Source: Catenuloplanes niger
GTDB taxonomy: Bacteria; Actinomycetota; Actinomycetes; Mycobacteriales; Micromonosporaceae
Length of the DNA: 64,000 nt
Reading direction: 5' to 3'
NCBI RefSeq assembly: GCF_031458255.1
Contig: NZ_JAVDYC010000001.1
Location: 7,984,501-8,048,500, forward strand
The notes below the pieces were generated by a model. That model was not told where the DNA came from, made no database searches, and was given only the letters and a program-made list of their open reading frames with translations. This document shows, piece by piece, positions 32,459 through 53,060 of this stretch (positions are counted from its first letter, which is position 1; the number at the start of each line of letters is the position of its first letter). The translations under genes and the position numbers were made by a program.

Positions 32459-34150
32459 GTGACCGCTTTCATGGAAACGTCCACGCGCGTACATGAAATC
32501 TGCGACTCGTACGTGGAGGACTATGCGCGGCTGAATCCGACCGAGGCGACCGAGTTCGGCATCGCCGGGTACGACGACACGCTTCCCGACCTGTCACCGG
32601 ACGGGCATCGGGCCCGTGCCGAGCTGGCCGGGCGCGCGCTGCGTGCGATCACCGCCGCGCAGCCGGCCGACGAGGGGGAGCGGGTCGCCAAGGCGATCTT
32701 CTCCGAGCGTGTCGGGCTCGAGGCGGAGATCCGGGCGTCCGGCCTCCCGGCGGCCTCGCTGAACGTGACGTGGAGCCCGGTGCAGGAGATACGCCAGGCC
32801 TTCGACCTGATGCCCGCGGAGACCGTGGACGACTGGGCCGCCATCGCCCGGCGGCTGGCGGCGGTCCCGGCGTCACTCGCCGGCTATCAGGCCTCCCTGC
32901 GCGCCTCGGCGGACGACGGCATCGTGGCCGCGGTGCGCCAGGTCGGCCGGGTGAGCACCCAGTGCGAGACCTGGTCCACGTCGTTCTTCGGGCCGTTCGT
33001 CGAGGGCGCCGACGCGGTTCCGGAGATGAGCGAGGCGGTCCGGGCCGACCTTGCCGCCGGTGCCCGCCATGCCGCCGAGGCGTACGCGGGGCTGGCCCGG
33101 TTCCTGCGCGAGCACCTGGCGCCGCGCGCGGCCCGGGAGGACGCGGTCGGTGCGGACGTCTACCGGCTGTGGTCACGCAAGTTCATCGGCGCGGATGTGG
33201 ACCTGCCCGAGGCCTACGCCTGGGGTTGGGAGGAGTTCCGCCGGGTCGAGGCCGAGCTGGCCGAGGTGGCCGCGCGGATCGCGGGCGGCGGCGGCCCGGC
33301 CGAGGCCGCCGCGGTGCTCGACGCCGACGTCCGCTACCGGATCACCGGGCGGGACGCGTTCCGGGGCTGGCTGCAGGAGCTGTCCGACCGGGCGCTGCAC
33401 GACCTGCGTGGCACGCACTTCGACATCCCGGACGAGTTGATGCGGCTGGAGTGCCGGATCGCCCCGTCCGGCGGCGGAATGGGGGCGTACTACACGAACC
33501 CGGCCGGAGACTTCAGCCGCCCCGGGCAGATGTGGTGGTCGTTGCCCGCGGACCGGGAGGAGTTCACCACCTGGCGGGAGCTGAGCACGGTCTACCACGA
33601 GGGCGTGCCCGGCCACCACCTGCAGATCGGCACCGCGGTGGCGACGCCGGGCCTGAACCGGTTCCAGCGCCTGCTGTGCTTCATCGACGGCCACGGCGAG
33701 GGCTGGGCCCTCTACGCCGAGCGGCTGATGCGCGAGTTCGGCTACCTCGACGACGGCCAGTCGCTCGGCATGCTGAACAAGAGCCTGTTCCGCGCGGCCC
33801 GGGTGCTCGTCGACATCGGCATGCACCTGCGGCTGGAGATTCCGGCGGGCACCGGCTTCCACGAGGGCGAGCGCTGGACGCCCGAGCTGGGCCTGGAGTT
33901 CCTGCGGGAGCGGACGCTGACCGAGCACGCCCGCGCGGTGGACGAGATCGACCGTTACCTGGGCTGGCCCGGTCAGGCCCCGTCGTACAAGCTCGGCGAG
34001 CGGCTGTGGGTGTCCATGCGCGAGGAGGCGCGCTCGCGGCAGGGCGCCGCGTTCGACCTCCGGCGATTCCACATGGACGCGCTGCGCCGCGGCCCGGCCG
34101 GGCTGGGCACGCTGCGGGACCTGGTGATCGGCCCCGCAGCGCTCAGCTGA
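32459..34150 (+). CDS. DUF885-family putative zinc metallopeptidase
   Basis: The 563-residue protein matches DUF885: an N-terminal YARLNPTEATEFGIAGYDD, a central QEIRQAFDLMP and the HEGVPGHHLQIG motif near residues 380-391 (HExxxGH-type zinc site). A second Glu sits in GHGEGWALYAERLM. The fold is related to M32 carboxypeptidases, and a peptidase role is likely but not shown. A tacgat -10-like box ends 7 bases before the GTG at 32459, so a leaderless transcript is possible; ATG 32471 is an alternative. The stop overlaps the convergent aminotransferase gene by 8 bases. Confidence 0.85.
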   Translation: MTAFMETSTRVHEICDSYVEDYARLNPTEATEFGIAGYDDTLPDLSPDGHRARAELAGRALRAITAAQPADEGERVAKAIFSERVGLEAEIRASGLPAASLNVTWSPVQEIRQAFDLMPAETVDDWAAIARRLAAVPASLAGYQASLRASADDGIVAAVRQVGRVSTQCETWSTSFFGPFVEGADAVPEMSEAVRADLAAGARHAAEAYAGLARFLREHLAPRAAREDAVGADVYRLWSRKFIGADVDLPEAYAWGWEEFRRVEAELAEVAARIAGGGGPAEAAAVLDADVRYRITGRDAFRGWLQELSDRALHDLRGTHFDIPDELMRLECRIAPSGGGMGAYYTNPAGDFSRPGQMWWSLPADREEFTTWRELSTVYHEGVPGHHLQIGTAVATPGLNRFQRLLCFIDGHGEGWALYAERLMREFGYLDDGQSLGMLNKSLFRAARVLVDIGMHLRLEIPAGTGFHEGERWTPELGLEFLRERTLTEHARAVDEIDRYLGWPGQAPSYKLGERLWVSMREEARSRQGAAFDLRRFHMDALRRGPAGLGTLRDLVIGPAALS

Positions 34151-35114
34151 CCCGGGCGGATTCCAGCGGTACGGACGACAGCCACCCGGGATGCCGGGTG
34201 GCTGTCACCCCGCGGACCAGGTCGGCGTATGCCTGCCGGATCCGGAGCGTGACCGGCCCCGGTCGGCCGTCACCGACCGGCCGGCCGTCGATCGCGGTGA
34301 TCGGCAGGACCTCCACGCCCGTACCCATCAGGAACAGTTCATCCGCGAGGTAGAGCTCCGTGCGGTCGACCTCGCGGTGCACCACGCCGATGCCCAGCTC
34401 CGCGCACAGATCCGCGACCGTGGCCGCGGTGAGGCTCTGCAGCACGTCGCTGGTCGACGACGGCGTGACCACCTGCCCGTCGATCAGCAGGCCGATGCAG
34501 GAGCTGGGCGCCTCGCTGATCTTGCGCCGCTCGTTGAGCATGATCGGGAAGTCGTGGCCGTTCTCCCGGGCCTCGATCAGTGCGAGGCGGCCGTTGTGGT
34601 AGTTCGCGAACGCCTTGACCCGCGCCGGCATCGACGCGTCCGCCGGGCGGGTCCACGAGCTGACCGCGGCCCGGCAGCCCCGCTCCGCGGCCAGCGACGT
34701 CCGGAACGGCCAGGAGTCGATCACCAGGTGGCAGCGCGCGCCGGCCGGCACCATCACCTCGCGGATCACCCCCTCGGGAAAGATCCACGGCCGGAGGTAC
34801 ACGTCCTCCCGGTACCGGTTGATGCGAAGCAGCTCGAGTGCGGCGTCGTGGACCTGGCCGAGGTCGAACGGCACGTCCAGGCGGCAGACCCGGGCGGACC
34901 GGAACAGCCGGGCGAGGTGGTCCGCCAGCCGGAAGGCGGACAGTCGCGCGCCGTCCCGGCTGACGTACGCCTTGATCCCCTCGAAGACCGCCGGCACCGA
35001 CGCGTGGCCGACGCCGTTCACGTGCACCAGCGCCTTGTCCCAGGGGACGAACTCGCCGTCCTTCCAGATCCAGTCCGGGTTTCCCGGTGCGTGCGCCAGT
35101 GAGCTGAGGCTCAT
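34143..35114 (-). CDS. class IV branched-chain-type aminotransferase (last gene of biosynthetic operon)
   Basis: The 323-residue PLP enzyme has the fold-type IV pattern of IlvE: FEGIKAYVSRDG near the start, VYLRPWIFPEG, the lysine region PARVKAFANYHNGRLALIEA, a Glu segment (KISEAPSSCIGLLIDG) and LFLMGTGVEVLPI. It should move an amino group from Glu to a 2-oxo acid. Its start overlaps the preceding small-subunit stop as ATGA. In context it probably aminates the 2-oxo acid made by the five upstream-encoded elongation enzymes. The open question is whether a side-chain carboxylate fits its pocket. Confidence 0.88.
   Translation of the reverse strand: MSLSSLAHAPGNPDWIWKDGEFVPWDKALVHVNGVGHASVPAVFEGIKAYVSRDGARLSAFRLADHLARLFRSARVCRLDVPFDLGQVHDAALELLRINRYREDVYLRPWIFPEGVIREVMVPAGARCHLVIDSWPFRTSLAAERGCRAAVSSWTRPADASMPARVKAFANYHNGRLALIEARENGHDFPIMLNERRKISEAPSSCIGLLIDGQVVTPSSTSDVLQSLTAATVADLCAELGIGVVHREVDRTELYLADELFLMGTGVEVLPITAIDGRPVGDGRPGPVTLRIRQAYADLVRGVTATRHPGWLSSVPLESARVS
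34177..34206 (+). terminator. hairpin inside the aminotransferase 3' end, serving DUF885
   Basis: Exact 13-base arms (34177-34189 and 34194-34206) with a 4-base loop lie 26 bases after the DUF885 stop at 34150, but within the last codons of the opposite-strand aminotransferase gene. The sequence thus encodes protein on one strand and probably a terminator on the other. Confidence 0.6.
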
Positions 35115-35599
35115 CCGGGGAACCTTCCGTTGGCCCGGACGAAGTTGACGATGCCGCCCGCGTCGATGATGTCCTGAGTGAACCGCGGCAGCTCGGGCAG
35201 GTCGTAGGTCTGCTCACCGAGCGATATCCGGCCGGCCGGCAGGTCCAGGGCCACCTCGTCACCGTCCGCCGCGACCTCGGCGATCTCGTCGGACACGAAC
35301 AGCGGGATGCCGAGATTGATCGAGTTGCGGTAGAAGATCCGCGCGAAGCTCGGCGCCACGATGGCGGCGACGCCGCGCTTCTTCAGCGCCAGCGGTGCGT
35401 ACTCCCGGGAGGAGCCGCAGCCGAAGTTCCGGTCGGCCACGATGACGTCGCCGGGCTGGGCGTTCTCCGCGAACTCGGGCCTCGCCTCGATGAACGCGGC
35501 GCGGCCGAGGTCCTCCTTCGGACGCAGGTACGGAGCGTACCGGCCGGGGACGATCTGGTCGGTGTCGACGTTGGCGCCGAACTTCCACACCCGGGTCAT
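35111..35599 (-). CDS. aconitase-family small subunit (homoaconitase/isopropylmalate isomerase type)
   Basis: The 162-residue protein has the LeuD/HacB swivel-domain signatures: VDTDQIVPGRY, DRNFGCGSSREYAPLALK and FARIFYRNSINLGIPLF. It is of the short archaeal/HacB length, not the ~200 residues of canonical bacterial LeuD. The substrate loop reads YLRP; as I recall, archaeal homoaconitase small subunits carry Arg at this position (YLRT) while isopropylmalate isomerases carry aliphatic or aromatic residues. This hints at a substrate with an extra carboxylate. Start and stop both overlap neighbours by 4 bases. Confidence 0.88.
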   Translation of the reverse strand: MTRVWKFGANVDTDQIVPGRYAPYLRPKEDLGRAAFIEARPEFAENAQPGDVIVADRNFGCGSSREYAPLALKKRGVAAIVAPSFARIFYRNSINLGIPLFVSDEIAEVAADGDEVALDLPAGRISLGEQTYDLPELPRFTQDIIDAGGIVNFVRANGRFPG

Positions 35600-36840
35600 G
35601 ACCGCTCCATCCCGTCGCGCGGGTCGCTGATCCGCCCGGTCAGCGCGGTGGCGGCCGCGACCAGCGGAGAGGCGAGGTAGATGCGTGACTTGGGCGAGCC
35701 CATCCGGCCACGGAAGTTGCGATTGCCGGTCGAGAGGCAGACGTCCTCGTCGCTCAGCGTGCCCTGGTGGCGTCCCATGCACGGGCCGCACCCCGCCGAG
35801 CCGATCACGGCACCGGCCTGGAGCAGCGTGGCGAGCGTGTCGTCCGCGGCCGCCCTCTCCATCTCCTGGCTGGAGGCGGGTGTCACCATCATCCGGACGT
35901 TCGGCGAGATCCGCCGGCCGCGCAGGAAGTTCGCGGCGTCGCGCAGGTCCTGGTACCGGCCGTTGGTGCAGGTGCCGATGAACACCACGGAGACCTCGGT
36001 GCCCTCCACCTCGGACAGGTCGACCACGGCGTCCACCGAGTTCGGCTTGGCGACCTGCGGCTCCAGCGTGTCGAGGTCGACCGTGACCGTGCGGTAGTAG
36101 TGCGCGCCCGGGTCGACGTAGAGCCAGTCGGGCACCTCGAAACGGTCGGCGGGCAGGCCGGCCGGCGGCACGATGCCGGCCTTCGCACCCAGCTCGACGG
36201 CCATGCTGGCGAGCGTCTGCCGGCCGGGCAGGTCCAGCCAGTCCAGCCCGTGGTACTCGATCGAGTCGTAGGTGGCGCCCTCGATGGTCAGGTCCCGGCA
36301 GAGCTTCAGGGCCAGGTCCTTGACGTCCACGCCGGGCCGGAACCGTCCGGTCACCAGCACCCGCAACGTCTCCGGCACCCGCAGCCAGATCTGGCCGGTG
36401 GCCCAGACCAGCGCGATGTCCGTGGACCCGAAGCCGCTGCCGAACGCGCCGACCGAGCCGTACCCGCAGGAGTGCGAGTCGGACCCCACCACGATCCGGC
36501 CCGGGGTGGCGATGCCCTCCTCGACGAGCACCTGATGCGCGATGCCGCGGCCCGCGTCGAACAGGCGGATGCCCTGCTCCTTCGCGAACGTACGGATCGT
36601 GCTCTGCATGTTCGCGGTGTCGACCGACGTGGCCGGCGCGACGTGGTCGATGGCCAGCACGATCTGGTCGGGATCCTTGACGTCGGCGACGCCGAGCTGG
36701 TCCCGCATGATCTCGATGATGCTGGGCGTCAGCGAGTCGTGCCCCATCGCGACGTCCGGCCGGACGATCACGAGATCACCGGGCCGCACCGGATGGCCGA
36801 CCGCATGGGAGATGATCTGTTCGGTAAGGGTCTGGTTCAT
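35596..36840 (-). CDS. aconitase-family large subunit (homoaconitase/isopropylmalate isomerase type)
   Basis: The 414-residue subunit binds the [4Fe-4S] cluster. It has VGSDSHSCGYGSVGAFGSG, a first cluster Cys in FIGTCTNGRYQDLRDA, and the pair in GSAGCGPCMGRHQG, plus the RNFRGRMGSP motif near the C-terminus. Its length is of the archaeal LeuC/HacA class (about 420), shorter than bacterial LeuC (about 470). With the small subunit it should isomerise the hydroxy acid through a dehydration/rehydration. ATGA overlaps join it to both neighbours. Confidence 0.9.
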   Translation of the reverse strand: MNQTLTEQIISHAVGHPVRPGDLVIVRPDVAMGHDSLTPSIIEIMRDQLGVADVKDPDQIVLAIDHVAPATSVDTANMQSTIRTFAKEQGIRLFDAGRGIAHQVLVEEGIATPGRIVVGSDSHSCGYGSVGAFGSGFGSTDIALVWATGQIWLRVPETLRVLVTGRFRPGVDVKDLALKLCRDLTIEGATYDSIEYHGLDWLDLPGRQTLASMAVELGAKAGIVPPAGLPADRFEVPDWLYVDPGAHYYRTVTVDLDTLEPQVAKPNSVDAVVDLSEVEGTEVSVVFIGTCTNGRYQDLRDAANFLRGRRISPNVRMMVTPASSQEMERAAADDTLATLLQAGAVIGSAGCGPCMGRHQGTLSDEDVCLSTGNRNFRGRMGSPKSRIYLASPLVAAATALTGRISDPRDGMERS

Positions 36841-37853
36841 GATGTCCCTCCGTCAGAGGATTCGAGCAGGTGGAGCACGGTGTCCCGGACCGAGCTCAGA
36901 ACCGGGGGATGCACCCCGCCGGCCAGGGCGGACCCGACCGCGTGCGTGACGCGCCGGGCGAGGTCCGGGCGCTCCCACACGTGCTCAAGGAGCATGGCGA
37001 CGCTCAGGATCGCCGCGGCCGGGTTCGCGGCACCGGTCCCGGCGATGTCCGGCGCGGAGCCGTGCACCGGCTCGGCGATCGCCACCCCGTCACCGAGGTT
37101 GAGCGACGGGGCGACGCCCAGGCCGCCGCTCCAGTGCGCGGCGGCGTCGGACAGGATGTCGCCGAAGAGGTTGGTGGTCACCACCACGTCGAAGGACTCG
37201 GGAGCTCCGACCATCCGGAGCGCGGCGACGTCGACATAGGTCTCCTCCACCTCGATGCCGGCACTCGGGCCGTCCCACCCGGCCACGACCTCGCGGACGC
37301 TGTCACGGAACAGCCCGTCGGTGACCGGGAGGACGTTCGCCTTGTGCACGATGGTCAGCTTCTTCGCGCCGCGGGTGTCCGCGATGCGCAGCGCGACCCG
37401 GGCGATCCGCCGGCTCGCGGTCGCCGAGATGACCCGCTCCGCGACCGCGACGTCACCGGAGCGGGTCTCCCGCCCGACGTACAGGTCCTCCGTGTTCTCC
37501 CGGACCACCACGAGGTCGACTCCGGTACGGGGGGAGAAGCCGGCCGTGCTGGCCGCGGGGCGGATGTTCGCGTACAGCCCGAGTTGCTGCCGCAGCGTCA
37601 GGATCGCGCTGCGGTAACCGGGCACGACCCGGCCGGGCGAGGCGGTGGCCCCGAACAACGCGGCGCCGCATCGTCGCACGGCGTCCAGCGTCTCCGGCGG
37701 CACCGCCACGCCCCGGGAGCGGAAGCACTCCCACCCGGCCTCTGCCCGCTCGTACCGCACCTCCGGCAGCACGGTCCGGAGCACCTGGACCGCGACCGGC
37801 ACGACTTCCTGGCCGATGCCGTCCCCAGGGATCACGCACAGTCGCGGTTCCAT
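36837..37853 (-). CDS. homoisocitrate-type beta-decarboxylating dehydrogenase
   Basis: The 338-residue enzyme belongs to the isopropylmalate/isocitrate dehydrogenase family: PGDGIGQEV, VRENTEDLYVGRE and NLFGDILSDAAA. Several blocks follow the homoisocitrate branch and not LeuB. Examples are LFGATASPGRVVPGYRSAILTL where LeuB has a GGP/RPE-GLL motif, YANIRPA, and HKANVLPVTDGLF where LeuB has DKANVLE. It should oxidise and decarboxylate the isomerised acid to the elongated 2-oxo acid, using NAD+. The calls come from memory of the two subfamilies. It starts 2 bases after the synthase stop. Confidence 0.85.
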   Translation of the reverse strand: MEPRLCVIPGDGIGQEVVPVAVQVLRTVLPEVRYERAEAGWECFRSRGVAVPPETLDAVRRCGAALFGATASPGRVVPGYRSAILTLRQQLGLYANIRPAASTAGFSPRTGVDLVVVRENTEDLYVGRETRSGDVAVAERVISATASRRIARVALRIADTRGAKKLTIVHKANVLPVTDGLFRDSVREVVAGWDGPSAGIEVEETYVDVAALRMVGAPESFDVVVTTNLFGDILSDAAAHWSGGLGVAPSLNLGDGVAIAEPVHGSAPDIAGTGAANPAAAILSVAMLLEHVWERPDLARRVTHAVGSALAGGVHPPVLSSVRDTVLHLLESSDGGTS

Positions 37854-37855
37854 GG

Positions 37856-39007
37856 CTAGTTCACGTGTCCTTTCACGATCGACAGCAGCGTGGCGTCGTC
37901 GATGTCCGTCCCGTTGTGGGCACGCAGCTTCACCTCGGCCAGCACCGCGTCGAACGCGCCCTGGCTGGGCAGGTCGACGTGCAACTGGGTCAGCTTCGCC
38001 CGCAGGCCGTGGTGGCCGGTGTGCTTGCCGATCACCAGACCGCGCTCCGGGGCGCCGATCAGCGACGGCGAGGCGATCTCGTACGTCGACCGGTCCTGCA
38101 GCACGCCGTGCTGGTGGATGCCGGCCGAGTGCGCGAACGCGTTGGCGCCCACGATCGGCTTGGTGTCGCCGATCGCGACGCCGCTGAGCCGGCTCACCAG
38201 CTGGCTGGTCGCGTAGATCTCGTCCAGTTTCAGCCGCGTCTTGCGCTGGTAGTAGTCCTCGCGGATGGCCAGCGCGGCGACGATCTCCTCCAGGGCCGCG
38301 TTCCCCGCGCGTTCCCCGATGCCGTTGAACGTGCAGCTGACGATGTTCGCGCCGTGGCGCACCGCGGCCAGCGAGTTCGCCACCCCGACACCCAGGTCGT
38401 TGTGGCAGTGGATGCGCACGCCGGTGTCCGGCCCCACCAGTGCGCGCACGCGCGCCACCAGCCGGCCGAACTCCTCCGGCTGGGCGTAGCCGACGGTGTC
38501 CGGCACGCTCACCATCGAGGCGCCGGCGGACAGCGCGGTGAGGTAGCAGCGCTCCAGCGTCTCGGGGTCCGCCCGGGTGACGTCCTCGCCGGAGAAGATG
38601 ACCTGCTGGAAGCGCTTGCAGGCGTACTGCACCGCGTCCTCGATCATGGCGAGTACCTCGTCGAGCGTCTTGCCGAACTTCACCCGGATGTGCAGTTCGG
38701 AGACGGGCGCGAACAGCGTGGCGACGGGTTGCTCGGCGAACTTGAGCGCCTCGGCGCCCTTGTCGATGTCGCTGCGCAGGGCCCGCACGAGCACGGCGGT
38801 CCGGCGGCCGGTCACGACCCGGGACACCGCCTGGATCGCCGCCACCTCCGCCTCCGACGAGCCGGGGAACCCGGCCTCGACCTCGTCCACGCCGAGCCGG
38901 TTGAGCTGCTTGGCGATCTCGACCTTGTCGTCCAGGCTGAAGGCCACCCCGGCGGCCTGCTCGCCGTCCCGGAGGGTGGTGTCGCTGATCTGCACGTGAT
39001 CAGTCAT
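37856..39007 (-). CDS. homocitrate/2-isopropylmalate synthase-type enzyme without regulatory domain
   Basis: The 383-residue protein has the DRE-TIM fold of the family: DTTLRDGEQAAGVAFS at the start, VRIHCHNDLGVGVANSLAA, GIGERAGNAALEE and AHSAGIHQHGVLQDRSTYEI. It lacks the C-terminal LeuA leucine-binding domain, so it should escape leucine feedback. It condenses acetyl-CoA with a 2-oxo acid. Together with the homoisocitrate-type dehydrogenase downstream, 2-oxoglutarate is the most likely acceptor, but short isopropylmalate synthases and HphA-like enzymes of homo-amino-acid pathways look similar. ATG 39007 overlaps the ArgH-like stop and has GGAGAGG upstream. Confidence 0.88.
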   Translation of the reverse strand: MTDHVQISDTTLRDGEQAAGVAFSLDDKVEIAKQLNRLGVDEVEAGFPGSSEAEVAAIQAVSRVVTGRRTAVLVRALRSDIDKGAEALKFAEQPVATLFAPVSELHIRVKFGKTLDEVLAMIEDAVQYACKRFQQVIFSGEDVTRADPETLERCYLTALSAGASMVSVPDTVGYAQPEEFGRLVARVRALVGPDTGVRIHCHNDLGVGVANSLAAVRHGANIVSCTFNGIGERAGNAALEEIVAALAIREDYYQRKTRLKLDEIYATSQLVSRLSGVAIGDTKPIVGANAFAHSAGIHQHGVLQDRSTYEIASPSLIGAPERGLVIGKHTGHHGLRAKLTQLHVDLPSQGAFDAVLAEVKLRAHNGTDIDDATLLSIVKGHVN

Positions 39008-44288: not shown

Positions 44289-45529
44289 CGCACGGCCTCG
44301 GTCTCGATCCGTACGGCGGCCACCAGCCGTTCACAGTTCGCGACGGCCTCCTCGGCGGTCTCGCCCCGCGCGATCACGTGGCCGACCCGGTCCTCGCTCC
44401 AGCGCAGCTCGCGCACCACGTCGCCGGGCGCGACCTCGATCTCCAGCTCGACCAGGGCCGGGTCCTCCCGGACCGCCTCGGTGCCGGTGATCGCCACGAC
44501 CCGGCCGGCCGGCGGCGTGAGGAACCGGATCGCCGCGCCCGCCACCGGCTTCGGTGGTTGCCGCAGCGGCTCGACCAGCCCGAACGGGATGCCGATCCCG
44601 TAGCGGTCCATGTCGACGCCGTAGGCGATCTCGGCCAGCTCGTTGATCCGGTCGCCACCGACCCGGTTGTGCGACTCGATGATCCGCGGCCCGCGCCCGG
44701 TCAGCTTGACCTCCGTGTGCGCGGGTCCCTCCGTGAGCCCGACCGTGTCCAGGAACCGGATCACCAGCTCCTCGACCTCTTCGAGCACCGCGCTCGGGTG
44801 CCGGCTCGGCATGGAGTGGCCGAGCTCGACGAAGGCCGGGCCGCTCACCTTGTCGGTCACCGCGACCAGCACGTGGCGGCCGTCGAAGCTGACCGTTTCC
44901 ACACTGATCTCCGGGCCGTCCAGGAACTCCTCGACCAGGAACTCGTCCAGCGGCCCGGCCAGGTCGATGACGTCGAAGGTGGCACCGGCCTCGTGGTACC
45001 GGTCCACGATCGTCGCCAGGTCCGCCTCCTCGTGGGCCGCGAAGATGCAGATGCTGCCGCCCTCACGGGTGGGCTTGACCACCACCGGCAGGCCGTGCTC
45101 GCGCACGAAGCCGCGCAGGTCCTCCTCGGTACGGCCGACCGCGTTCGCGACCGGGCTGACCCCTGCGGCGTTCAGGTGCGCCCGCATGCGCGGCTTGTCG
45201 AGCAGCATCTCCACCGTGGCCACCGAGTTGCCGCCCAGCCCCAGGTCCTCGGCGATCCGCGCGGCGGGCAGCAGGCCCAGTTCGAAGAGCGAGAGAACCT
45301 TCTGGAACGGGTACGCCGCATGCAGTGCCCGGACCAGCGGCAGCAACCGGTCGATGTCCGAGTAGTCCAGGAGCAGCGCCTGGTCGACGTAGTCCCAGTG
45401 CTCACGGCGGTACGAGTCGGGGTACTGGACGTAGACGACGTCCAGGCCCAGCTCGCGTGCCTTACGAACGATCTTCGGCTTGCCGCCGATCACGAGGATC
45501 CGGGGTCGCGCGGAAGCGGTGTCTGACAT
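44285..45529 (-). CDS. ATP-grasp carboxylate-amine ligase
   Basis: The 414-residue protein has the ATP-grasp layout: an N-terminal RILVIGGKPKIVRKARELG domain, VVVKPTREGGS (ATP-binding Lys), the metal-binding block EVKLTGRGPRIIESHNRVGGDRI and a C-terminal VGHVIARGETAEEAVANCE domain typical of L-amino-acid ligases and biotin-carboxylase-like ligases. It forms an amide or peptide bond through an acyl phosphate. I start at ATG 45529, with AAGGAGA upstream; the longer frame from 45568 lacks this. It may extend or amidate the peptide. Confidence 0.85.
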   Translation of the reverse strand: MSDTASARPRILVIGGKPKIVRKARELGLDVVYVQYPDSYRREHWDYVDQALLLDYSDIDRLLPLVRALHAAYPFQKVLSLFELGLLPAARIAEDLGLGGNSVATVEMLLDKPRMRAHLNAAGVSPVANAVGRTEEDLRGFVREHGLPVVVKPTREGGSICIFAAHEEADLATIVDRYHEAGATFDVIDLAGPLDEFLVEEFLDGPEISVETVSFDGRHVLVAVTDKVSGPAFVELGHSMPSRHPSAVLEEVEELVIRFLDTVGLTEGPAHTEVKLTGRGPRIIESHNRVGGDRINELAEIAYGVDMDRYGIGIPFGLVEPLRQPPKPVAGAAIRFLTPPAGRVVAITGTEAVREDPALVELEIEVAPGDVVRELRWSEDRVGHVIARGETAEEAVANCERLVAAVRIETEAVR

Positions 45530-45564
45530 GATTGAGAGCTCTCCTTCGGCCAGGTGAGGGAGGG

Positions 45565-47088
45565 TCATCGCCCGCCCGCCCGGTACAACGAGTCGCCGAT
45601 CGGGATGCCGGCGAGTGCGGTGCGGTCGACCTTGCCCGGGCGGTTCAGCGGCATCTCGGCCAGCCAGACGTGGAACCGGGGGATCATGTGGCCCGGCAGG
45701 TGGTCGCGGAGGTACTCGACGAGGGCCTCGTCGGGCGACGGCGTGCCGGACAGATAGGAGACGAGCGCGGTCCCGCCCGGCGCTCGCGGGTGGACCAGTA
45801 CGGCCGCGTCGGTGACCCCGGGGAATCCGCGCAGCGCGTGCTCGACCTCGCCGATCTCGACCCGGAACCCGTTGATCTTCACCTGGTCGTCCATCCGTCC
45901 CAGGTAGACGTAGTTGCCGTCCGCGTCGACCGTCGCGCGGTCACCGGTGGCGTACATCCGCCGGCCGGGCTCGTCGCTGAACGGATCCGGCAGGAACGCC
46001 GAGGCGGTCCGGGACGGCAGGCCGAGGTAGCCGCGGGCGAGCCCCCGGCCCGCGATGTAGATCTGACCGACCTCGCCGTCCGGGACCGGGCGCAGGTCCT
46101 CGTCGAGCAGATGGATCCGCACGCCGCCGTAGGGCTTGCCGATCGGCGCCCGCTGCGGGGTGGTGGAGTCGCAGACGTACCAGGTGGCGGCGACCGAGGC
46201 TTCGGTCGGACCGTACCCGTTGTGCACCACGAGGTCGCCGGCCGCGTCCGCGAGTCCGCGCCCGTCCAGCTGCGAGCTGCCGGTGATCACCAGTCGCACC
46301 CCGGCCGCGGCCAGGCGCGGCAGCAGCGACCGGCCGTACGGCCCGACCACGGCGGACGGGAGGTCCAGCACGGTGGCGCCCAGCGCCCGGGCATCGCGGA
46401 CCAGGAGCATCGCCTGCGGCGCGCCCGGCGCGGAGGTCGCGATCGCGGCACCGCAGGCCAACGTCATCAGGCAGTCCTGCATCGACACGTCGACGGTCGG
46501 CTCGGCCGTCCAGAGCAGCACGTCCTCGGGGCGGATCAGGTCCAGTTCGTCCCGGCAGGCGACGATCAGATTGACGATCCCCTCGTGCGGCACGCCGACC
46601 ACCTTCGGCCGGCCGGTCGAGCCCGACGTGGTGATCGCATAGGCGAGGTCCTGGGCCGCTGGCGCCGGCAGACCGGCACCGGTCGAGGGCTCGCCCGCCA
46701 GGCCGGGATCGCCGATCAGCAACGCCCCGGGCAGCCATTCGACCGCGGCGTCCGCGAGCACCAGGGTGCACTCCGCCTCGCGGAGCACGTCCCGGCTGCG
46801 GGCCGGCGGCCCGGCCGGGTCCAGCGGCAGGCACGCGGCACCGGCCCGGATCGTGGCCCAGAGACCGAGCACGGCGGCCGGGCCGCGCGGGGCCACCAGC
46901 CCGACGACCGTGCCGGGACCGGCGCCGAGGCGCCGGAGCCGATGCGCCAGCCGGGCCGTCTCCGCGCCGAACTCCGCGTAGGTCCACGACCGGCCGGACG
47001 TCCGCACCGCGGTCGCGTCCGGACGGGTGCGGAGCTGGTGCTCGAACATCTCGCCGAGGGTCACGGCGGTCCGCGGGGGCGCGCTCAC
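45565..47088 (-). CDS. free-standing NRPS adenylation protein
   Basis: The 507-residue protein is an adenylation domain without condensation or carrier domain. It carries A3 TTSGSTGRPKV, a GYGPTEAS block, YATGDRATVDADGNYVYLGRMDDQVKINGFRVEIGEVE (A7-A9, split here for description) and the A10 Lys in NRPGKVDR. The aspartate that anchors the amino group is in VDVSMQD, so an amino acid is expected. My tentative pocket reading is D-V-Q-D-V-T-G-V-A, which I cannot match to a known residue. It probably loads the 96-residue carrier. GTG 47088 overlaps the MbtH stop and has GGGAGGT upstream. Confidence 0.88.
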   Translation of the reverse strand: MSAPPRTAVTLGEMFEHQLRTRPDATAVRTSGRSWTYAEFGAETARLAHRLRRLGAGPGTVVGLVAPRGPAAVLGLWATIRAGAACLPLDPAGPPARSRDVLREAECTLVLADAAVEWLPGALLIGDPGLAGEPSTGAGLPAPAAQDLAYAITTSGSTGRPKVVGVPHEGIVNLIVACRDELDLIRPEDVLLWTAEPTVDVSMQDCLMTLACGAAIATSAPGAPQAMLLVRDARALGATVLDLPSAVVGPYGRSLLPRLAAAGVRLVITGSSQLDGRGLADAAGDLVVHNGYGPTEASVAATWYVCDSTTPQRAPIGKPYGGVRIHLLDEDLRPVPDGEVGQIYIAGRGLARGYLGLPSRTASAFLPDPFSDEPGRRMYATGDRATVDADGNYVYLGRMDDQVKINGFRVEIGEVEHALRGFPGVTDAAVLVHPRAPGGTALVSYLSGTPSPDEALVEYLRDHLPGHMIPRFHVWLAEMPLNRPGKVDRTALAGIPIGDSLYRAGGR

Positions 47089-47306
47089 CGCTGACCTCCC
47101 GTGGGTTCGGCCGCGGCCGGCCGGCGCACGCTCAGCGGCCGCAGATCGGTCCAGACCTCGTCGATGTGCGCGAGGCACTCCGCCCTGGTGCCGGCCGGGC
47201 CGGTGGCCCGCCAGCCGAGCGGAAGATCACGATCGGCCGGCCAGATGGAGAACTGCTCCTCGTGGTTGACCACGACACGGAACTCCCGCCGTTCATCGTC
47301 GAACAT
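47085..47306 (-). CDS. MbtH-like protein
   Basis: The 73-residue protein has the MbtH signature: FRVVVNHEEQFSIWPADRDLPLGWRATG in two overlapping blocks (NHEEQFSIWP and PLGWR) followed by ECLAHIDEVWTDLRP. Such proteins bind adenylation domains and are often needed for their folding and activity. It lies between the two adenylation-containing genes and overlaps the second by 4 bases; either or both could be its partner. Confidence 0.95.
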   Translation of the reverse strand: MFDDERREFRVVVNHEEQFSIWPADRDLPLGWRATGPAGTRAECLAHIDEVWTDLRPLSVRRPAAAEPTGGQR

Positions 47307-47327
47307 GTGCCCCTCGGTCCCTTCAGG

Positions 47328-50300
47328 TCATTCGTGCTCGGGCTGGTCGGCCAGCGCCCAGCCGACGGCGCCGGGGAGGACTGCCTCCCAGGCGGCATAC
47401 GTGTGGCCGCCGTCCGCGAACTCGGTGCGGACGACGTGGCCCCGGCCGGCCAGGTCCGCGGCCGTCTGCTTCGTCGCCTCCACCAGGCTGAGCCCGTCGT
47501 CGAGCAGGATCTCCTCCTCCTCGCGCCCGGCCGCCAGGAACAGGCGCACCGGCTGGGCGCCGACGCCGTCGCCGTCCGGGGCCGGGCCGAGCCGATGGTC
47601 GGTGAGCGGTCCGGAGATGCCGGCGGCGCCGTCGAACCGGTCCGGGCGGCGCAGCGCGGCACGGACCGCGGCGATCGCGCCCAGGCTCGCGCCCAGCGCG
47701 ACGACCCGGTCGGCCCGGTCCCGTTCGCCCAGCCACGTCCGCAGGTACGGCAGGAGGTCGTCGGCGAGCAGGTCCACGTAGCCGTCGTCGAGCAGCTCCG
47801 TGCGGCGCGACTCCCAGTCGGCGGGGCTCAGGAAGACCGCCGCGGTCACCGGGATGTGCCCGGCCAGGGTCAGCCGGTCCAGGATCACCGGCAGCCGCAT
47901 GATGTCCACCAGCTCCGAGCCGTCGAGCACCACCAGCAGCCGCCGGACCGGCGCCGCGTGGTCGGTGCCGGAGACGAAGAGGTCCACCCGCCGGTCGCCG
48001 CCCAGCCGCTCGGAACGCCAGGACCGGCGTTCCAGCCGGTGCTCGCGGGACACCCCGGCCAGGTCGGGCCGGCTCTCGCCGAGCAGCGCCGTCGCGTACG
48101 CCGCCGGGGTCCGGTGCTCCATCATCAGGCGCAGCGGGACCTCGCGGCCGAGCAGCCGCCGGACCGCCGCGGTCGCCCGCGGTACGAGCAGCGAGTGCCC
48201 ACCGTGCTCGAAGAAGTCGCCGGTGGCCGGCACCGGGCCGCCCAGCACCGTCGACCACGCCTCGGCCACCCGGGCCTGGAGCCCGGTCTCCGGTGCCACG
48301 TCCTGCTCCGCGCCCGGCGGGGCGGCCGTGACCGGCGGGAGCGCCGCGCGGTCCACCTTGTTGTTCGCGGTCAGCGGGATCCGCGGCACCTGCACGACGT
48401 GGTCCGGCACCATGTACGCCGGGAGGGTCTCGCCCAGCCCGCGGCGCAGCGCGGCCCGGTCGACCGGCTCGGCCGCCACCACGTACGCCACCAGCGCCGG
48501 TCCGGTCCGCAGCTCCGCCCGGAGCACGATCGCCGAGGTGATCCCGGCCTGGCGCAGCAGCGCGTGCTCGATCTCGCTGGTCTCGATCCGGAAGCCGCGG
48601 ATCTTCACCTGGCGATCCGCGCGGCCGAGGAAGTCGATCTCGCCGTTCGCGAGGTAGCGGCCCAGGTCACCGGTGCGGTACATCCGGGAGCCGGGTGGAC
48701 CGTACGGATCGGGGACGAACGCGGCCGCGGTGAGGCCGGGCCGCCCGTGGTAGCCGCGGGCCAGGCCGTCACCGCCCAGGTAGATCTCACCCCGCGCACC
48801 GGCCGGGACGTGCCGCAGGTCGCGGTCCAGCACGTAGACCCGGGTGTGCGGTACGGCGTGGCCGATCGGCACCCGGCCGCTGCCGGGGTCGCCGTCGAAC
48901 ACGGTGGCCAGCACGGTGCACTCGGTCGGCCCGTACGACGCCGTCACCCGGCAGCGCGGCAGCAGCTCCCGGATCGCCGCGAAGCTCCTGGGCGTGACCA
49001 CGTCGCCGCCGACGATCAGCTGGCGCAGCCCGCCCAGGGCCGCGACGTCCCGTTCCACCAGGAGATCGAGCTGAGGAGAGACCAGCTTGAGCGTGGTCAC
49101 GGCGTGCTCGCGGACAAGGGCGCCGAGGTTCTCCTGAAGCGTTCCGGTGTCGGTCACCACGACGCGCCCGCCGTTCGCCAGCGCCGTCCACTCCAGCGCG
49201 GCCACGTCGAAGGTCAGCGGCCCGGCCTGCAGGAACGTGGTCCCGGGCCCGACCTCGAGGTAGCTCGGGGCGCCGGCGACGAGCCGGCTCAGCCCTCGGT
49301 GGGTGACCGCCACGGACTTGGGCGTCCCGGTCGAGCCGGACGTGGAGATCAGGTACGCCAGGTCGTCGGGTCGCGCGGCCGGCGGCAGGTCACCGGCCGC
49401 GTCGCCGGCGAGGCCGGGCGCGCCGGCACCGGCTTCGAGCACGGGCGTGGAGTGCGCCGGGAGTGCGCCGCGCAGCGACGGGCTGACCACGGTCAGGACG
49501 GCACCGGAGTCGTCGAGCAGGAACGTCAGCCGCTCGGCCGGGAAGCCCGGGTCGAGCGGAAGGTACGCCGCACCGCACTTGAGGATCGCGAGCAGCACCA
49601 CGTACCGCTCGATGCCGTGCTCCAGGCAGACCGCGACGACGCGCTGCGGGCCGGCGCCCCGGGTGACCAGGTGCCGGGCCAGCCGGTCGGACCGCTCGTC
49701 CAGCTCGCGACAGGACAGTGCACCGTCCGCGGCGACCACCGCCGGTGCGTCCGGCGCGGCCGAGGCGCGGGCCCGGAACAGCTCGACCACGGTGGTCTCC
49801 GGTGCCGACGACGGGTCGTTGCGGGCGTGCAGGGCCGCCAGCTCCTCGTCCGTGGTCAGGACGAACTCGCGCAGCGGCCGCTCGGGCTCGGCGATCGCGC
49901 GCTCGAGCAGGCGGACGTACCGGGCCGTGAGCGCGGCGACGGGCTCCCGCTCGAACAGGTCGGGACGGTAGAGGAAGGACGCCCGGAGGCGGCCGTCGAC
50001 CGGCATCGTGGTGAGCGAGAGGTCGAACCGGGCGGTTTCCGGGACCTCCGGGTACCACCAGATCGGCGCGTTCGGCAGCTCGGTCAGGGCGAGCCGGTCG
50101 CCGGCGTGGTTCACCGCGACGTCGAAGATCGCGTTGCGCCGGTCCGCCGCACCGCTGCGCAGCGCGCCGACGATCTGCTCGAACGGCGCGTCCTGATGGG
50201 CGTCCGCGGCCATCCACGCATCCCGGGTGCGGACGATCAGCTCCCGGAAGGTCAGATCGGTCCCGGACACGTCCACCCGGACCGGCACCGTGTTGACGAA

Positions 50301-51212
50301 GAACCCGACCACGTCCTGCAGGTCGTTGTGCGGGCGGTCGGAGACGATCGCGCCGACGACCACATCGGACTGGCCGGTGAAGTCGGCCAGCGTCGCGGCC
50401 AGCGCGGCCGTCACCACGATGAACGGCGTCGCCCGGGACTGCCAGGCCAGCGCCGTCATCGCGGACGTGGACTCCTCGGACAGCTCCTCGACGACGCTCG
50501 CGCCGTCGCCCGCCGCGACGGCCGGGCGCGGACGGTCGAGCGGCAGCTCCAGCCGGTCGAGGCCGGCCAGCGCGCCCGACCACCACTCCAGCAGCGACGC
50601 GAGCCGTTCCTCGGTCAGGAACCGCCGCTGCCAGACGGCGTAGTCGCCGTACTGGACCGGCAGCTCCGGCAGTTGCGCCGGCCGCTTCTCCAGCGCGGCG
50701 TCGTACAGCTCCATCAGGTCCCGGGGCAGCACGTCCATCGACCACCGGTCGGTGATGATGTGGTGCAACACCATGTACAGCCCGGGTCCGTCGTCCAGCT
50801 CCGCGCCGACCAGCCGGAACAGCGGCGGGTCGGCGAGGTCGAAGGGAGCGGTCGCGGCGGCCTCGACCGCCGCGACCCAATCCCGGCCGCTCCAGGTGAT
50901 GGGGATCTCGACGTCGTCGAGCACCTCCTGGGCCGTGGTCCCGTCCGGGCGGAGGACGAACCTCGTCCGCAGGATCTCGTGCCGTTGCACCAGCCCGGCG
51001 AAGGCGGTGGTGATGGCCACGGGGTCCAGTCCCTTGGGGAAGCGCCATCCACCATGGATGTGGTACTGGTCGTGCGCGGAGTCCAGCTGGCGTAGCCACC
51101 AGAGGCGCTCCTGACCCACCGACAGCGGGTATCCGCTCGTCACGGGCTCGCGGTGCAGTGGGAACGGGTTGGCGGGGCGCTTCTCACGTCGGGGCATGGC
51201 CACCAGGTCCAT
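47328..51212 (-). CDS. NRPS, condensation-adenylation-carrier-esterase
   Basis: The 1294-residue synthetase begins with a condensation domain (about 30-450; SVGQERLWWLRQLD, active HHIITDRWS). An adenylation domain follows (about 470-960; ISTSGSTGTPKS, SYGPTECT, YRTGDLGRY, NNKVDR), then a carrier with FFEHGGHSLLVPR (Ser near 1010) and an Fes/enterochelin-esterase-like domain (about 1060-1290; VVLDGSELVDIM, VALGASLGAIAAV, closing GGHTYAAWEAVLPGA). It should join the residue from the free carrier to its own residue and release a dipeptide. My pocket reading is D-V-L-K-I-G-S-V-L, whose Lys278 recalls Asp/Asn-type pockets. The start could be ATG 51197, which has the better ribosome site. Confidence 0.92.
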   Translation of the reverse strand: MDLVAMPRREKRPANPFPLHREPVTSGYPLSVGQERLWWLRQLDSAHDQYHIHGGWRFPKGLDPVAITTAFAGLVQRHEILRTRFVLRPDGTTAQEVLDDVEIPITWSGRDWVAAVEAAATAPFDLADPPLFRLVGAELDDGPGLYMVLHHIITDRWSMDVLPRDLMELYDAALEKRPAQLPELPVQYGDYAVWQRRFLTEERLASLLEWWSGALAGLDRLELPLDRPRPAVAAGDGASVVEELSEESTSAMTALAWQSRATPFIVVTAALAATLADFTGQSDVVVGAIVSDRPHNDLQDVVGFFVNTVPVRVDVSGTDLTFRELIVRTRDAWMAADAHQDAPFEQIVGALRSGAADRRNAIFDVAVNHAGDRLALTELPNAPIWWYPEVPETARFDLSLTTMPVDGRLRASFLYRPDLFEREPVAALTARYVRLLERAIAEPERPLREFVLTTDEELAALHARNDPSSAPETTVVELFRARASAAPDAPAVVAADGALSCRELDERSDRLARHLVTRGAGPQRVVAVCLEHGIERYVVLLAILKCGAAYLPLDPGFPAERLTFLLDDSGAVLTVVSPSLRGALPAHSTPVLEAGAGAPGLAGDAAGDLPPAARPDDLAYLISTSGSTGTPKSVAVTHRGLSRLVAGAPSYLEVGPGTTFLQAGPLTFDVAALEWTALANGGRVVVTDTGTLQENLGALVREHAVTTLKLVSPQLDLLVERDVAALGGLRQLIVGGDVVTPRSFAAIRELLPRCRVTASYGPTECTVLATVFDGDPGSGRVPIGHAVPHTRVYVLDRDLRHVPAGARGEIYLGGDGLARGYHGRPGLTAAAFVPDPYGPPGSRMYRTGDLGRYLANGEIDFLGRADRQVKIRGFRIETSEIEHALLRQAGITSAIVLRAELRTGPALVAYVVAAEPVDRAALRRGLGETLPAYMVPDHVVQVPRIPLTANNKVDRAALPPVTAAPPGAEQDVAPETGLQARVAEAWSTVLGGPVPATGDFFEHGGHSLLVPRATAAVRRLLGREVPLRLMMEHRTPAAYATALLGESRPDLAGVSREHRLERRSWRSERLGGDRRVDLFVSGTDHAAPVRRLLVVLDGSELVDIMRLPVILDRLTLAGHIPVTAAVFLSPADWESRRTELLDDGYVDLLADDLLPYLRTWLGERDRADRVVALGASLGAIAAVRAALRRPDRFDGAAGISGPLTDHRLGPAPDGDGVGAQPVRLFLAAGREEEEILLDDGLSLVEATKQTAADLAGRGHVVRTEFADGGHTYAAWEAVLPGAVGWALADQPEHE

Positions 51213-51219
51213 ACGGGAG

Positions 51220-51241: not shown

Positions 51242-51264
51242 GGGCGGGTGTGCGGACGTGCCGG

Positions 51265-51555
51265 TCAGGCCACCGGCGTCGTGGCGTCGGCGGCCGGCTC
51301 GGCGTCCTCCCGGACGGCGGCGACCGCGGCCACGATGGTGTTGACGCTGCGGAAGGTGCCGTGCTGGAGGCTCTCCGTCGGCAGTTCGACGTCGAGCGCG
51401 TCCTCCAGGTTGAGCATGAGACCCATGCAGGAGAGCGAGGTCATGCCCATGTTCCACAGGTCGTCGTCGGGGGCCAGCTCGCGGCTGCCGAAGTTGAGCT
51501 GCTCCTGGACGAGTTTGCTGACGAGGTCCCGGAGGGACTGATCGGCGTTCGTCAC
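51265..51555 (-). CDS. free-standing peptidyl/acyl carrier protein
   Basis: The 96-residue protein is a single carrier domain with the phosphopantetheine Ser in NMGMTSLSCMGLM (about residue 39) and a helical LNLEDALDVELPTESL. GTG 51555 overlaps the oxidase stop as GTGA and has GGAGA upstream. The last 15 residues are an Ala/Asp tail. It is probably charged by the free adenylation protein, serves the FAD enzyme encoded before it, and donates to the condensation domain encoded after it. Confidence 0.88.
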   Translation of the reverse strand: MTNADQSLRDLVSKLVQEQLNFGSRELAPDDDLWNMGMTSLSCMGLMLNLEDALDVELPTESLQHGTFRSVNTIVAAVAAVREDAEPAADATTPVA

Positions 51556-53060
51556 CGCGATTCTCCAATGCCGCTCGTGGCCGGGGCCAGGGAAGGAGCG
51601 TCGCCGACGCGACGCAGGTAGCGTGCGACCCGGCGCGCGCCGACGAGGCTGCCCTCGGCGTACCAGAGCACGTCGGGGCCGAGGGCGTATCCGGAGCCGA
51701 TCTTCTCGTAGAACTCCGTGCCCCGGGCGCGGTAGTACGCGGCCAGCTGCGTGGTCGTCATCTGCGGCGCGGCCTCCGCGCCGGTCTCGAACCAGGCGGC
51801 CATGTTGTGCTGCACGTACTCCTCGACCGAAGCCTCGACCGTCCGGGTCTGGATCGGCTGGCGGACCGGGTTGAACATCGGGTCGATGGTGCCGGGCTTG
51901 CCCTGCAGCTCGTTGGCGACGTGCGTGGCCAGCAGCGGGGCGCAGTGGAACCCGTCCCGGTAGGTGCCGGTCATCAGGTAGAGCCCGGAGGTCGGGAGCC
52001 AGCCGATCATCGGGAAGCCGTCGAGCGTGACCGGCCGGTTGCCGCTGAGCCACTGCAGGACCTCGTGCCGCGCGATCTGCTCGTCCAGCTGCTGCATCGA
52101 GTACTGGGCGAGGTAGCGCACATCGGCGATCCAGGTGACGCTGGCGATGTCGTCGACCAGGCGGTTGGTGGCGCCGAGGTACTCCCGGCCGGGGCCGGCC
52201 GGCACGACGTGCAGGCCACAGGCGAAGCCGCGGTTCGGCGTGCGCACCACGCTGCGGAACGGCTCACCGGCGGTGCGCTTGGCGATCATCGCGAACCCGA
52301 GGCCCGGGAACGTCGGGATCAGCTCGGTCTCCTTGGCCACGGTCCGGACCAGGGCCTCGCTGCGCGCGCCGACCGCCACGACGACCTTGCCCGCCTCGAT
52401 GATGCTGCCGTCCTCGAGCTCGACCCCGGTGACGGCGTCGGCGTTACCGGTCAGCCGCCGCACGGTCTGGTCGAGCAGCGTCGCACCGGCCGCGTCGAGC
52501 CGGGTCTCCAGCGCGGCGAGCACGCCGCGCGCGTCGACCGCACCCTCGTCGTGCAGGTGAACGGCGCGCAGTGCGCGCGCGTCGGTCCGCGGCCGGAAGC
52601 CGGGGATGTCCGCCGGGTCGATCGGGGACCAGGGCTTGCCGTACTCGTCGAGCGCCTTGAGCATCGCCTCGAAGTTGACGGTGTCCAGCTCGGCGCCGAT
52701 GGCGTTGAGCACCACGTGCGTCTCGGTGGCGGTCTGCAGGGGGAACCCGGTCGAGGAGTGCTCCTCGAGCTTGCGCAGGACCTCGGGCCAGCGGCTGTGC
52801 GCCTGGACGCCGAGCTCGAACCGGGTGCGCGAGGCGTCCGTGCGAAGCGACTCGGAGGTCACCTCGCCGAAGCAGCCGAGCATCGCGCCGGCCGCGCGGC
52901 TCGCCCCCGCGTCACGGTGGCTGGGACCGACCACGACGACGGACCCGACCTTGCGTTCCACCAGTTCGTCGGCGAGAAACAGGCCGAGCGCGCCGTTGCC
53001 GACGATGACCACATCGGCCTGCTTCGGCGCTGCAGTGTTTCTGACACCAGGATGTTCCAT
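51552..53060 (-). CDS. FAD-dependent amine/amino acid oxidase (DAO family), first gene of operon
   Basis: The 502-residue flavoprotein has the N-terminal FAD site VVIVGNGALGLFLADEL (GxGxxG), VVGPSHRDAGASRAAGAMLG, and the second DAO block VVVAVGARSEALV. Late motifs are PVTLDGFPMIGWLP and LMTGTYRDGFHCAPLLA. This is the glycine-oxidase/sarcosine-oxidase type. Being coupled to a carrier protein gene, it may oxidise an aminoacyl-carrier intermediate to an imine or 2-oxo form. ATG 53060 has GGAGGA 7 bases upstream; the frame opens earlier at 53099 without one. Confidence 0.85.
   Translation of the reverse strand: MEHPGVRNTAAPKQADVVIVGNGALGLFLADELVERKVGSVVVVGPSHRDAGASRAAGAMLGCFGEVTSESLRTDASRTRFELGVQAHSRWPEVLRKLEEHSSTGFPLQTATETHVVLNAIGAELDTVNFEAMLKALDEYGKPWSPIDPADIPGFRPRTDARALRAVHLHDEGAVDARGVLAALETRLDAAGATLLDQTVRRLTGNADAVTGVELEDGSIIEAGKVVVAVGARSEALVRTVAKETELIPTFPGLGFAMIAKRTAGEPFRSVVRTPNRGFACGLHVVPAGPGREYLGATNRLVDDIASVTWIADVRYLAQYSMQQLDEQIARHEVLQWLSGNRPVTLDGFPMIGWLPTSGLYLMTGTYRDGFHCAPLLATHVANELQGKPGTIDPMFNPVRQPIQTRTVEASVEEYVQHNMAAWFETGAEAAPQMTTTQLAAYYRARGTEFYEKIGSGYALGPDVLWYAEGSLVGARRVARYLRRVGDAPSLAPATSGIGESR

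Follow-up and report, generated by a model that had tools for sequence, protein, structure and literature searches.

Amidines can be installed by flavoenzymes of the N-formimidoyl synthase family, to which Orf1 of the BD-12 (streptothricin-type) pathway and N-formimidoyl fortimicin A synthase (Fsm14) belong. In the portions of the Orf1 study drawn on here, glycine is oxidised at one site of the enzyme, the product is held on Cys281 as an N-O-S (NOS) adduct, and an N-formimidoyl or N-iminoacetyl group is then moved to an amine at a second site (PMC10156733). The same portions report that C281 and E426 are required for transfer and dispensable for glycine oxidation, and that transfer is lost in the A278V mutant (PMC10156733). 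A further feature of the family is a stretch of around 100 extra C-terminal residues that contributes to the acceptor site. Other known systems that are relevant here are argininosuccinate synthase and lyase (ArgG and ArgH) and the chain-elongation pathways of lysine (aminoadipate) and leucine. Relatives of all these enzymes are encoded together in Catenuloplanes niger, in an operon of 15 open genes on the minus strand (34143-53060) of the 64,000-nucleotide stretch analysed here (hereafter the window; positions 7,984,501 to 8,048,500 of NZ_JAVDYC010000001.1), which lies on one 9.74 Mb contig. The first gene of this operon (51552..53060, minus strand, as for all genes of the operon below) is predicted to encode an FAD-dependent N-formimidoyl (or N-iminoacetyl) transferase of the Orf1/Fsm14 family, here called the head enzyme, and the remaining genes include those of a minimal nonribosomal peptide synthetase (NRPS). 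The operon is a real and rare biosynthetic unit, apparently intact, and its gene content suggests, with a probability that we put at roughly 0.55, that its product is a peptide of two or three residues carrying an amidine derived from glycine.

The family assignment of the head enzyme is very probably correct. In Pfam it is a DAO-type flavoenzyme, and against the Protein Data Bank (PDB) it matches the N-formimidoyl fortimicin A synthase entries with E values of 2e-77 to 3e-75, while glycine oxidases appear at 2e-16 and weaker. The residue numbering of these chains fits that of Orf1, which is used here. The head enzyme has 502 residues and Orf1 has 491; their alignment ends at residue 426, and identity to Orf1/Fsm14 over the aligned part is 38%. 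Within it, C281, H284, Y294, T298, R342, R368, H419 and E426 are all kept, as are L124, F279 and A280, so that the cysteine of the NOS bridge and the four glycine-site residues (R342, R368, H284 and Y294) are shared with the known members. Conservation extends to the relatives: all 14 proteins compared (that of the window and 13 relatives) retain C281, H284, Y294, T298, R342 and R368, and 13 of these 14 retain H419 and E426, with L077 as the exception. Two shorter relatives, in which the 419-426 region is uncovered, bring Cys281 to 16 of 16 aligned members; these counts leave out the plasmid records, two of the 13 of which were examined for their context. Conversely, the acceptor-side residues R306, S310, E312, E313, F316 and T423 of Orf1 are all changed. 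Since the catalytic and glycine-site residues are kept and the acceptor side is changed, the head enzyme has, as read from these residues, what is needed to form an amidine from glycine, and its acceptor probably differs from that of Orf1.

The protein had been described in the first-pass annotation of this DNA as an FAD oxidase. The flavoenzyme part of this description stands, but the PDB matches and the kept residues make Orf1-family formimidoyl/iminoacetyl transferase the better name. An ordinary glycine or aminoacyl-carrier oxidase that makes no amidine is an improbable alternative: the best NCBIfam name is indeed ThiO, although at 121 bits against a cut-off of 251, and the match to glycine oxidase structures is weaker than that to Orf1 by about 60 orders of magnitude. 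Furthermore, the head enzyme is longer than the glycine oxidase chains among the PDB matches (376-395 residues), and C281, H284, H419 and E426 are kept, of which H284 is among the Orf1 site residues that are not common to ThiO, according to the portions of the Orf1 study cited above (PMC10156733).

Unlike those of Orf1 and Fsm14, the gene of the head enzyme sits in an NRPS operon, where it overlaps by 4 bases (GTGA) the gene for a free aminoacyl carrier protein (51265..51555; PP-binding, E 4e-9, with a GMTSL motif). Judging from this gene arrangement, the head transferase seems rather likely to act on a residue bound to this carrier. A carrier profile was built from six carriers (the two of the window, that of L021, that of L025 and two of L027), and searches with it found a free carrier directly beside the family member in 5 of 17 other loci, namely L019, L021, L025, L027 and L083. 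Only L083 counts as independent, because the carriers of L021, L025 and L027 are in the profile and L019 comes from a sister core. In L083, the carrier-like frame (8201-8530) adjoins the Orf1-family gene (8434-9855) inside a longer same-strand run.

The family as a whole is thinly spread, being found in 11 of 200 genomes of the same bacterial family at E<=1e-20 and in 5 of 252 genomes of the same class at E<=1e-60, the genome of C. niger counted in both. Some of its members have other surroundings. On a linear plasmid of Streptomyces finlayi (L087), the Orf1-family gene (11965-13422) lies a few genes from an NRPS gene, and genes for a GMC oxidoreductase, a thioesterase, an acyl-CoA dehydrogenase, RidA and SARP are also found there. 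In a genome of the window's family (L023, 10919-12268) and on an Agrobacterium plasmid (L088, 4953-6305), the Orf1-family gene is near an LLM (luciferase-like) monooxygenase gene, an annotated oxidoreductase in L088 and identified by eye in L023; this pairing is perhaps a separate small pathway.

Two genomes from other genera of the same family, G166 and G128, carry what appears to be the core of the operon in minimal form. Their oxidase-type transferase (71% identity), carrier, NRPS (64-65%) and adenylation protein (59-60%) are grouped together as in the window. Within the stretches covered around the transferase (downstream about 26 kb in G166 and 24 kb in G128, upstream only about 3 kb in each), no match at E<=1e-5 to the ArgG, ArgH, isomerase, dehydrogenase, MFS, ligase or MbtH proteins was found beside these cores, and the lone elongation-type match was a distant synthase-like protein (26% identity) far downstream in L020. 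Directly upstream of the minimal core, two genera encode a conserved protein of 625 or 615 residues (L019, 1338-3215; L021, 12414-14261); none was noticed in the window operon. Each of the two genomes has one ArgG match. That of G166 (L042, C1:2262347-2263444) has a low score of 286 bits and is without the conserved Glu184 in the alignment.

The adenylation (A) codes of these cores were read by hand with GrsA (gramicidin-synthetase) numbering, and name no substrate. The code of the NRPS A domain, DVLK(I/V)GSVLK, is common to the window, G166 and G128, whereas the free A protein has DVQDIGGVAK in the window and DSHEIGGVAK in both G166 and G128. The simplest reading of these codes would be that the second residue, loaded by the NRPS, is the same in all three and that the carrier-loaded residue differs. 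With the same NRPS code and a different free-A code, the extra genes would act on the carrier-loaded residue, which suggests that they supply it. The minimal cores make the transferase step testable on its own.

The architecture of the operon is consistent with a single transcription unit. None of the 15 genes has an internal stop, and among the 14 junctions eight are 4-base overlaps (including LeuC/LeuD, taking the ATG at 35599 as the LeuD start), one is an 8-base overlap (MFS/ArgG1) and five are gaps of 52, 21, 16, 18 and 2 bases. The single operon with frequent 4-base overlaps proposed in the first-pass annotation is therefore borne out, and every gene-family name given there was matched by Pfam. 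Following the free carrier gene are those for a one-module NRPS (47328..51212; Condensation, AMP-binding, PP-binding and Esterase, the last being PF00756; A code DVLKIGSVLK), an MbtH-like protein (47085..47306; PF03621, E 2e-23) and a free adenylation protein (45565..47088; AMP-binding, with AA-adenyl-dom above its cut-off), which is presumed to load the free carrier. With condensation (C), A, carrier and esterase domains in one protein plus a free A protein and a free carrier, this is the minimal NRPS that had been claimed. Downstream of it are genes for an ATP-grasp L-amino acid ligase (44285..45568; ATP-grasp_4 and LAL_C2; PDB matches BL00235, E 4e-20, and BacD, E 4e-19), possibly responsible for a further peptide bond, and for a predicted MFS exporter (42996..44288; MFS_1, E 7e-47). 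NCBIfam is consistent with Pfam: ArgG1, ArgG2, ArgH, both isomerase subunits (as subfamilies) and both A domains score above cut-off, and the synthase, dehydrogenase and aminotransferase score under the cut-offs of named enzymes. As judged by eye in the translations, the motifs appear intact, including SGGLD in both ArgG, GSSMMPQKKNP in ArgH, IGTCTNG and CGPCMG in LeuC, GGHSL and GMTSL in the carriers, HHIITD in the C domain, GASLG in the esterase and GNGALG in the flavoenzyme. Neither a regulator nor a phosphopantetheinyl transferase is among the 15 genes.

Two ArgG-like proteins, ArgG1 (41789..43003; NCBIfam argG, 454 bits) and ArgG2 (40549..41772; argG, 361 bits; PRK13820, 401 bits), are encoded next, both with the Arginosuc_synth domain, followed by ArgH (39004..40530; Lyase_1 and ASL_C2; NCBIfam argH, 523 bits against a cut-off of 279.5). 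They resemble argininosuccinate synthase and lyase in their family scores, ATP motif, aspartate-site residues and lyase signature, the GSSxMPQKxN loop being kept in ArgH. The nearest structure to ArgG1 is 1j1z, and its best argininosuccinate synthase match in the PDB has an E value of 6e-119, against 3e-80 for ArgG2, which falls in the tree within a divergent clade, with proteins of one Poribacteria, one Hecatellales and one Spirochaetales genome at 49-50% identity. Both proteins keep the ATP loop SGGLD and the residues Y84, N120, D121, R124, E258 and Y270; T116 is kept in ArgG2 and is Ser in ArgG1. Comparison sequences made up 38 rows, one of which (L061) was unreadable and 29 of which are best-scoring loci, so that the set is uneven. 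ArgG1 has Ser at position 182, where ArgG2 and 11 of the 37 readable others have Ala. Glu184, which corresponds to human Glu191, is Gly in both ArgG1 and ArgG2, in contrast to typical argininosuccinate synthases; it is Glu in 33 of the 37, the exceptions being L030, L031, L032 and L042. In the portion of the human enzyme study used here, Glu191 takes part in citrulline binding and E191Q is inactive (PMC13289927). The substrate of these ArgG proteins may be other than citrulline. The loss of Glu184 in ArgG2 was also considered as a sign of a new substrate, an idea that was dropped, as its clade mates are likewise without this residue. Moreover, beside the clade mate in L032 an argH-like frame was identified by eye.

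Chains named nitrile synthetase are also detectably related to both ArgG proteins: 9leh and 9lei match ArgG1 at E 2e-33 and ArgG2 at E 5e-27. We guess that these chains derive from a paper of 2025, whose subject is a nitrile synthetase resembling argininosuccinate synthetase. That paper is cited in the part of PMC13060819 drawn on here, where the presumed course of ATP-dependent nitrile synthetases is activation of a carboxylate followed by that of an amide. The matches to both proteins would fit one ArgG being such an enzyme and the product bearing a nitrile; this is very improbable, as the chains are far more distant than the best argininosuccinate synthases (3e-80 for ArgG2 and 6e-119 for ArgG1) and an ArgH partner is present.

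The elongation genes form a complete set, as had been claimed, with the synthase, isomerase, dehydrogenase and aminotransferase families all found in Pfam and NCBIfam. They are a 2-isopropylmalate/homocitrate-synthase-like gene (37856..39007; HMGL-like and HCS_D2; best NCBIfam name 2-isopropylmalate synthase, under cut-off), a homoisocitrate/isopropylmalate dehydrogenase-like gene (36837..37853; Iso_dh), the two parts of a LeuC/LeuD- or homoaconitase-like isomerase, and a class IV (branched-chain type) aminotransferase gene (34143..35114; Aminotran_4, E 1e-37; PRK06606, 257 bits, and ilvE_I, 233 bits, both under cut-off). The large isomerase subunit (35596..36840; Aconitase) scores above cut-off with TIGR02086 (521 bits) and TIGR01343 (502 bits). 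For the small subunit (35111..35599; Aconitase_C), the closest NCBIfam model is that of homoaconitase (PRK14023, 214 bits, under the cut-off of 229), with TIGR02087 above cut-off, and the closest PDB entry is an isopropylmalate/citramalate isomerase (3vba). Like the lysine (aminoadipate) and leucine pathways the operon has the full set of enzymes, yet it mixes an isopropylmalate-type synthase with a homoisocitrate-type dehydrogenase. The latter has homoisocitrate dehydrogenase 3asj as its best PDB match (E 2e-97) and Leu at the place of Arg85 of the Thermus homoisocitrate dehydrogenase; homoisocitrate dehydrogenase 3ty3 is also without Arg at the aligned place. The synthase, of 383 residues and with no LeuA regulatory domain found by Pfam, most resembles isopropylmalate synthase. 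At the positions of a His and an Arg in the aligned homocitrate synthase it carries Leu and Ile. The His and Arg (His72 and Arg133 in Thermus numbering) bind the 2-oxoglutarate carboxylate in homocitrate synthase; some homocitrate synthases may be without the pair. Homocitrate as the first product is weakened because both carboxylate-binding residues are missing.

From these families a pathway can be proposed. The synthase, the LeuC/D-like isomerase and the dehydrogenase would lengthen a 2-oxo acid by at least one CH2 and the aminotransferase would aminate it; the enzyme families are those found, with a putative substrate. One or both ArgG proteins together with ArgH, with aspartate as nitrogen donor, may then convert an amide- or ureido-type end of the amino acid into an amidine or guanidine. 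The free A protein, aided by MbtH, would load the amino acid on the free carrier. The head flavoenzyme, as judged from its family and catalytic residues, would oxidise free glycine, keep the product bound to Cys281 in an N-O-S adduct and then N-formimidoylate or N-iminoacetylate the residue on the carrier, whose amine is the presumed acceptor. The NRPS module would finally condense this residue with a second amino acid; release of the product would fall to the esterase and its export to the MFS protein, with the ATP-grasp ligase possibly contributing a further residue. The domains are those found, in a putative order. The most likely source of the amidine would be glycine via the head flavoenzyme and not ArgG, because the flavoenzyme family itself installs amidines and the core exists without adjacent ArgG genes. 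The earlier proposal of a short peptide with an elongated amino acid and an amidine or guanidine is partly supported by the families and gene set, and corrected in that with an Orf1-type transferase the amidine needs no ArgG. If the operon does make a peptide with a glycine-derived amidine, the range of NOS-bridge N-formimidoyl transferases would extend from aminoglycoside-type antibiotics to peptide assembly lines. The operon would also offer a small and testable gene set for a putative amino acid with an amidine or guanidine, built through chain elongation together with ArgG/ArgH.

As for the part of ArgG, ArgH and the elongation genes, two routes can be considered, both unlikely. By the first, a neutral ureido 2-oxo acid such as keto-citrulline would be elongated to give homocitrulline and, via ArgG/ArgH, homoarginine, which would be loaded and N-formimidoylated. 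A neutral side chain fits the Leu and Ile of the synthase and the Leu at the Arg85 place of the dehydrogenase, if these positions have their presumed roles, and the citrulline contacts Y84, N120, R124, E258 and Y270 are kept in both ArgG proteins. However, the homoisocitrate/homoaconitate families are those nearest to the dehydrogenase and, by NCBIfam, to the small isomerase subunit, two ArgG would be unnecessary, and the citrulline contact Glu184 is lost in both, with Ala at 182 in ArgG2, as in part of the comparison set. By the second and similarly doubtful route, elongation of 2-oxoglutarate would lead to 2-aminoadipate or 2-aminopimelate, whose far carboxylate would be converted by the pair of ArgG proteins and the single ArgH, at the cost of two aspartates, to an amide and from there to an amidine. 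Two ArgG with one ArgH would suit two rounds of the same chemistry, and the dehydrogenase is nearest to homoisocitrate dehydrogenase. The match of both ArgG to 9leh/9lei is in line with this too, given the carboxylate-then-amide activation described for such enzymes in the part of PMC13060819 consulted. Against this route, the synthase is without the presumed 2-oxoglutarate carboxylate residues, and we know of no ArgG that puts aspartate on a carboxylate. Combining this far-end amidine, made by two ArgG and ArgH in series, with a second, glycine-derived amidine added in trans by the NOS-bridge transferase on the NRPS carrier is more improbable still as a reading of the gene set; if true, the product would be a short peptide with two amidines, and enzymes would be seen to make amidines by a new route.

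Several observations weigh against a carrier-bound acceptor and a peptide with a glycine-derived amidine. The characterised members of the Orf1 family act on free aminoglycoside-type compounds. No free carrier was found by the profile search beside the family gene in 12 of the 17 other loci, so that the coupling of transferase and carrier is not general; among these 12, L084 gave a weak match only (E 0.006) and the carrier of L087 lies within an NRPS. In the head enzyme, the tunnel residue A278 of Orf1 is Gly, with L124, A280 and H419 kept, and E312, E313 and F316, which lie near the adduct, are Ala, Asp and Tyr. The change of E312 need not abolish transfer, because in the portions of the study drawn on here Orf1 E312A still modifies the short acceptor glycylthricin (PMC10156733). 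Moreover, the minimal cores could make something unrelated, and the free-A codes of the window and of these cores are all acidic at position 278, so that this residue alone is no mark of the operon. With regard to the arginine-type genes, the absence of Glu184 in ArgG2 is normal for its clade (L030, L031, L032), which leaves ArgG1 as the only real outlier, and there is no carbamoyltransferase or amidotransferase in the operon to make an ArgG substrate.

The arg- and leu-like genes of the operon are extra copies and not the housekeeping set. Two of the three argG matches in the genome are in the operon, the third being of E. coli type (841 bits, at 6.25 Mb). Of the two argH genes above cut-off one is in the operon, and the other follows argC, J, B, D, F and R at 7.27 Mb; the extra ArgG and ArgH genes noted earlier are therefore real. 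Outside the operon, the search for leucine genes covered the leuC and leuA types and yielded a leuC at 5.71 Mb (725 bits) and, each scored over its catalytic part alone, a leuA homologue (4.02 Mb) and a citramalate-synthase-like gene (5.69 Mb). The case raised in the first-pass annotation in which the operon genes are the strain's only leucine and arginine genes is rejected, given the argCJBDFR and argH, argG, leuC and leuA-homologue genes at 7.27, 6.25, 5.71 and 4.02 Mb, respectively. A related explanation is that ArgG1, ArgG2 and ArgH merely boost arginine supply or are resistant copies of a target, with the elongation genes doing likewise for leucine. Antibiotic clusters commonly carry extra target copies, and all three proteins keep their family motifs. 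Nevertheless, this seems improbable, since identity to the housekeeping argG is 28% for ArgG1 and 26% for ArgG2, and 178/452 to the housekeeping argH for ArgH, which are not the values of recent copies; furthermore, the elongation genes make up an entire pathway, whose dehydrogenase is of homoisocitrate type. ArgG1 also has no counterpart of human Glu191, and the E191Q enzyme was inactive in an assay cited in the portion of PMC13289927 used.

The operon appears to be rare. ArgG2 was found in its own genome alone at E<=1e-115 among 354 genomes of the family and at E<=1e-100 among 394 of the class, with nothing in plasmids at E<=1e-100, and the dehydrogenase in its own genome alone at E<=1e-75 among the same 354 and 394 genomes. 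No relative of the full operon was found through either protein in the family and class genomes and plasmids. A scan of 84,980 species for ArgG2 gave three relatives at 48-50% and none closer, with misses possible as exact eight-residue patterns were used. In agreement with the first-pass annotation, no described cluster with this gene set was found in the open-access literature (MIBiG and subscription papers lay outside the search), and no description of an ArgG/NRPS/homocitrate, indospicine or amidine cluster was found there either. Among the listed matches for formimidoyl and nonribosomal peptide, as far as titles and the beginnings of abstracts tell, there was no such cluster, and the three that cover every term concern streptothricins or beta-lactams. 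The listed matches on nitrile synthetases gave no lead.

The neighbouring genes look unrelated to the operon. Downstream there is a convergent DUF885 gene (32459-34150, plus strand). Upstream, at a distance of about 0.8 kb, genes for a sugar ABC transporter, a GH42 beta-galactosidase and a LacI regulator (53876-60111) make up an ordinary sugar-use group.

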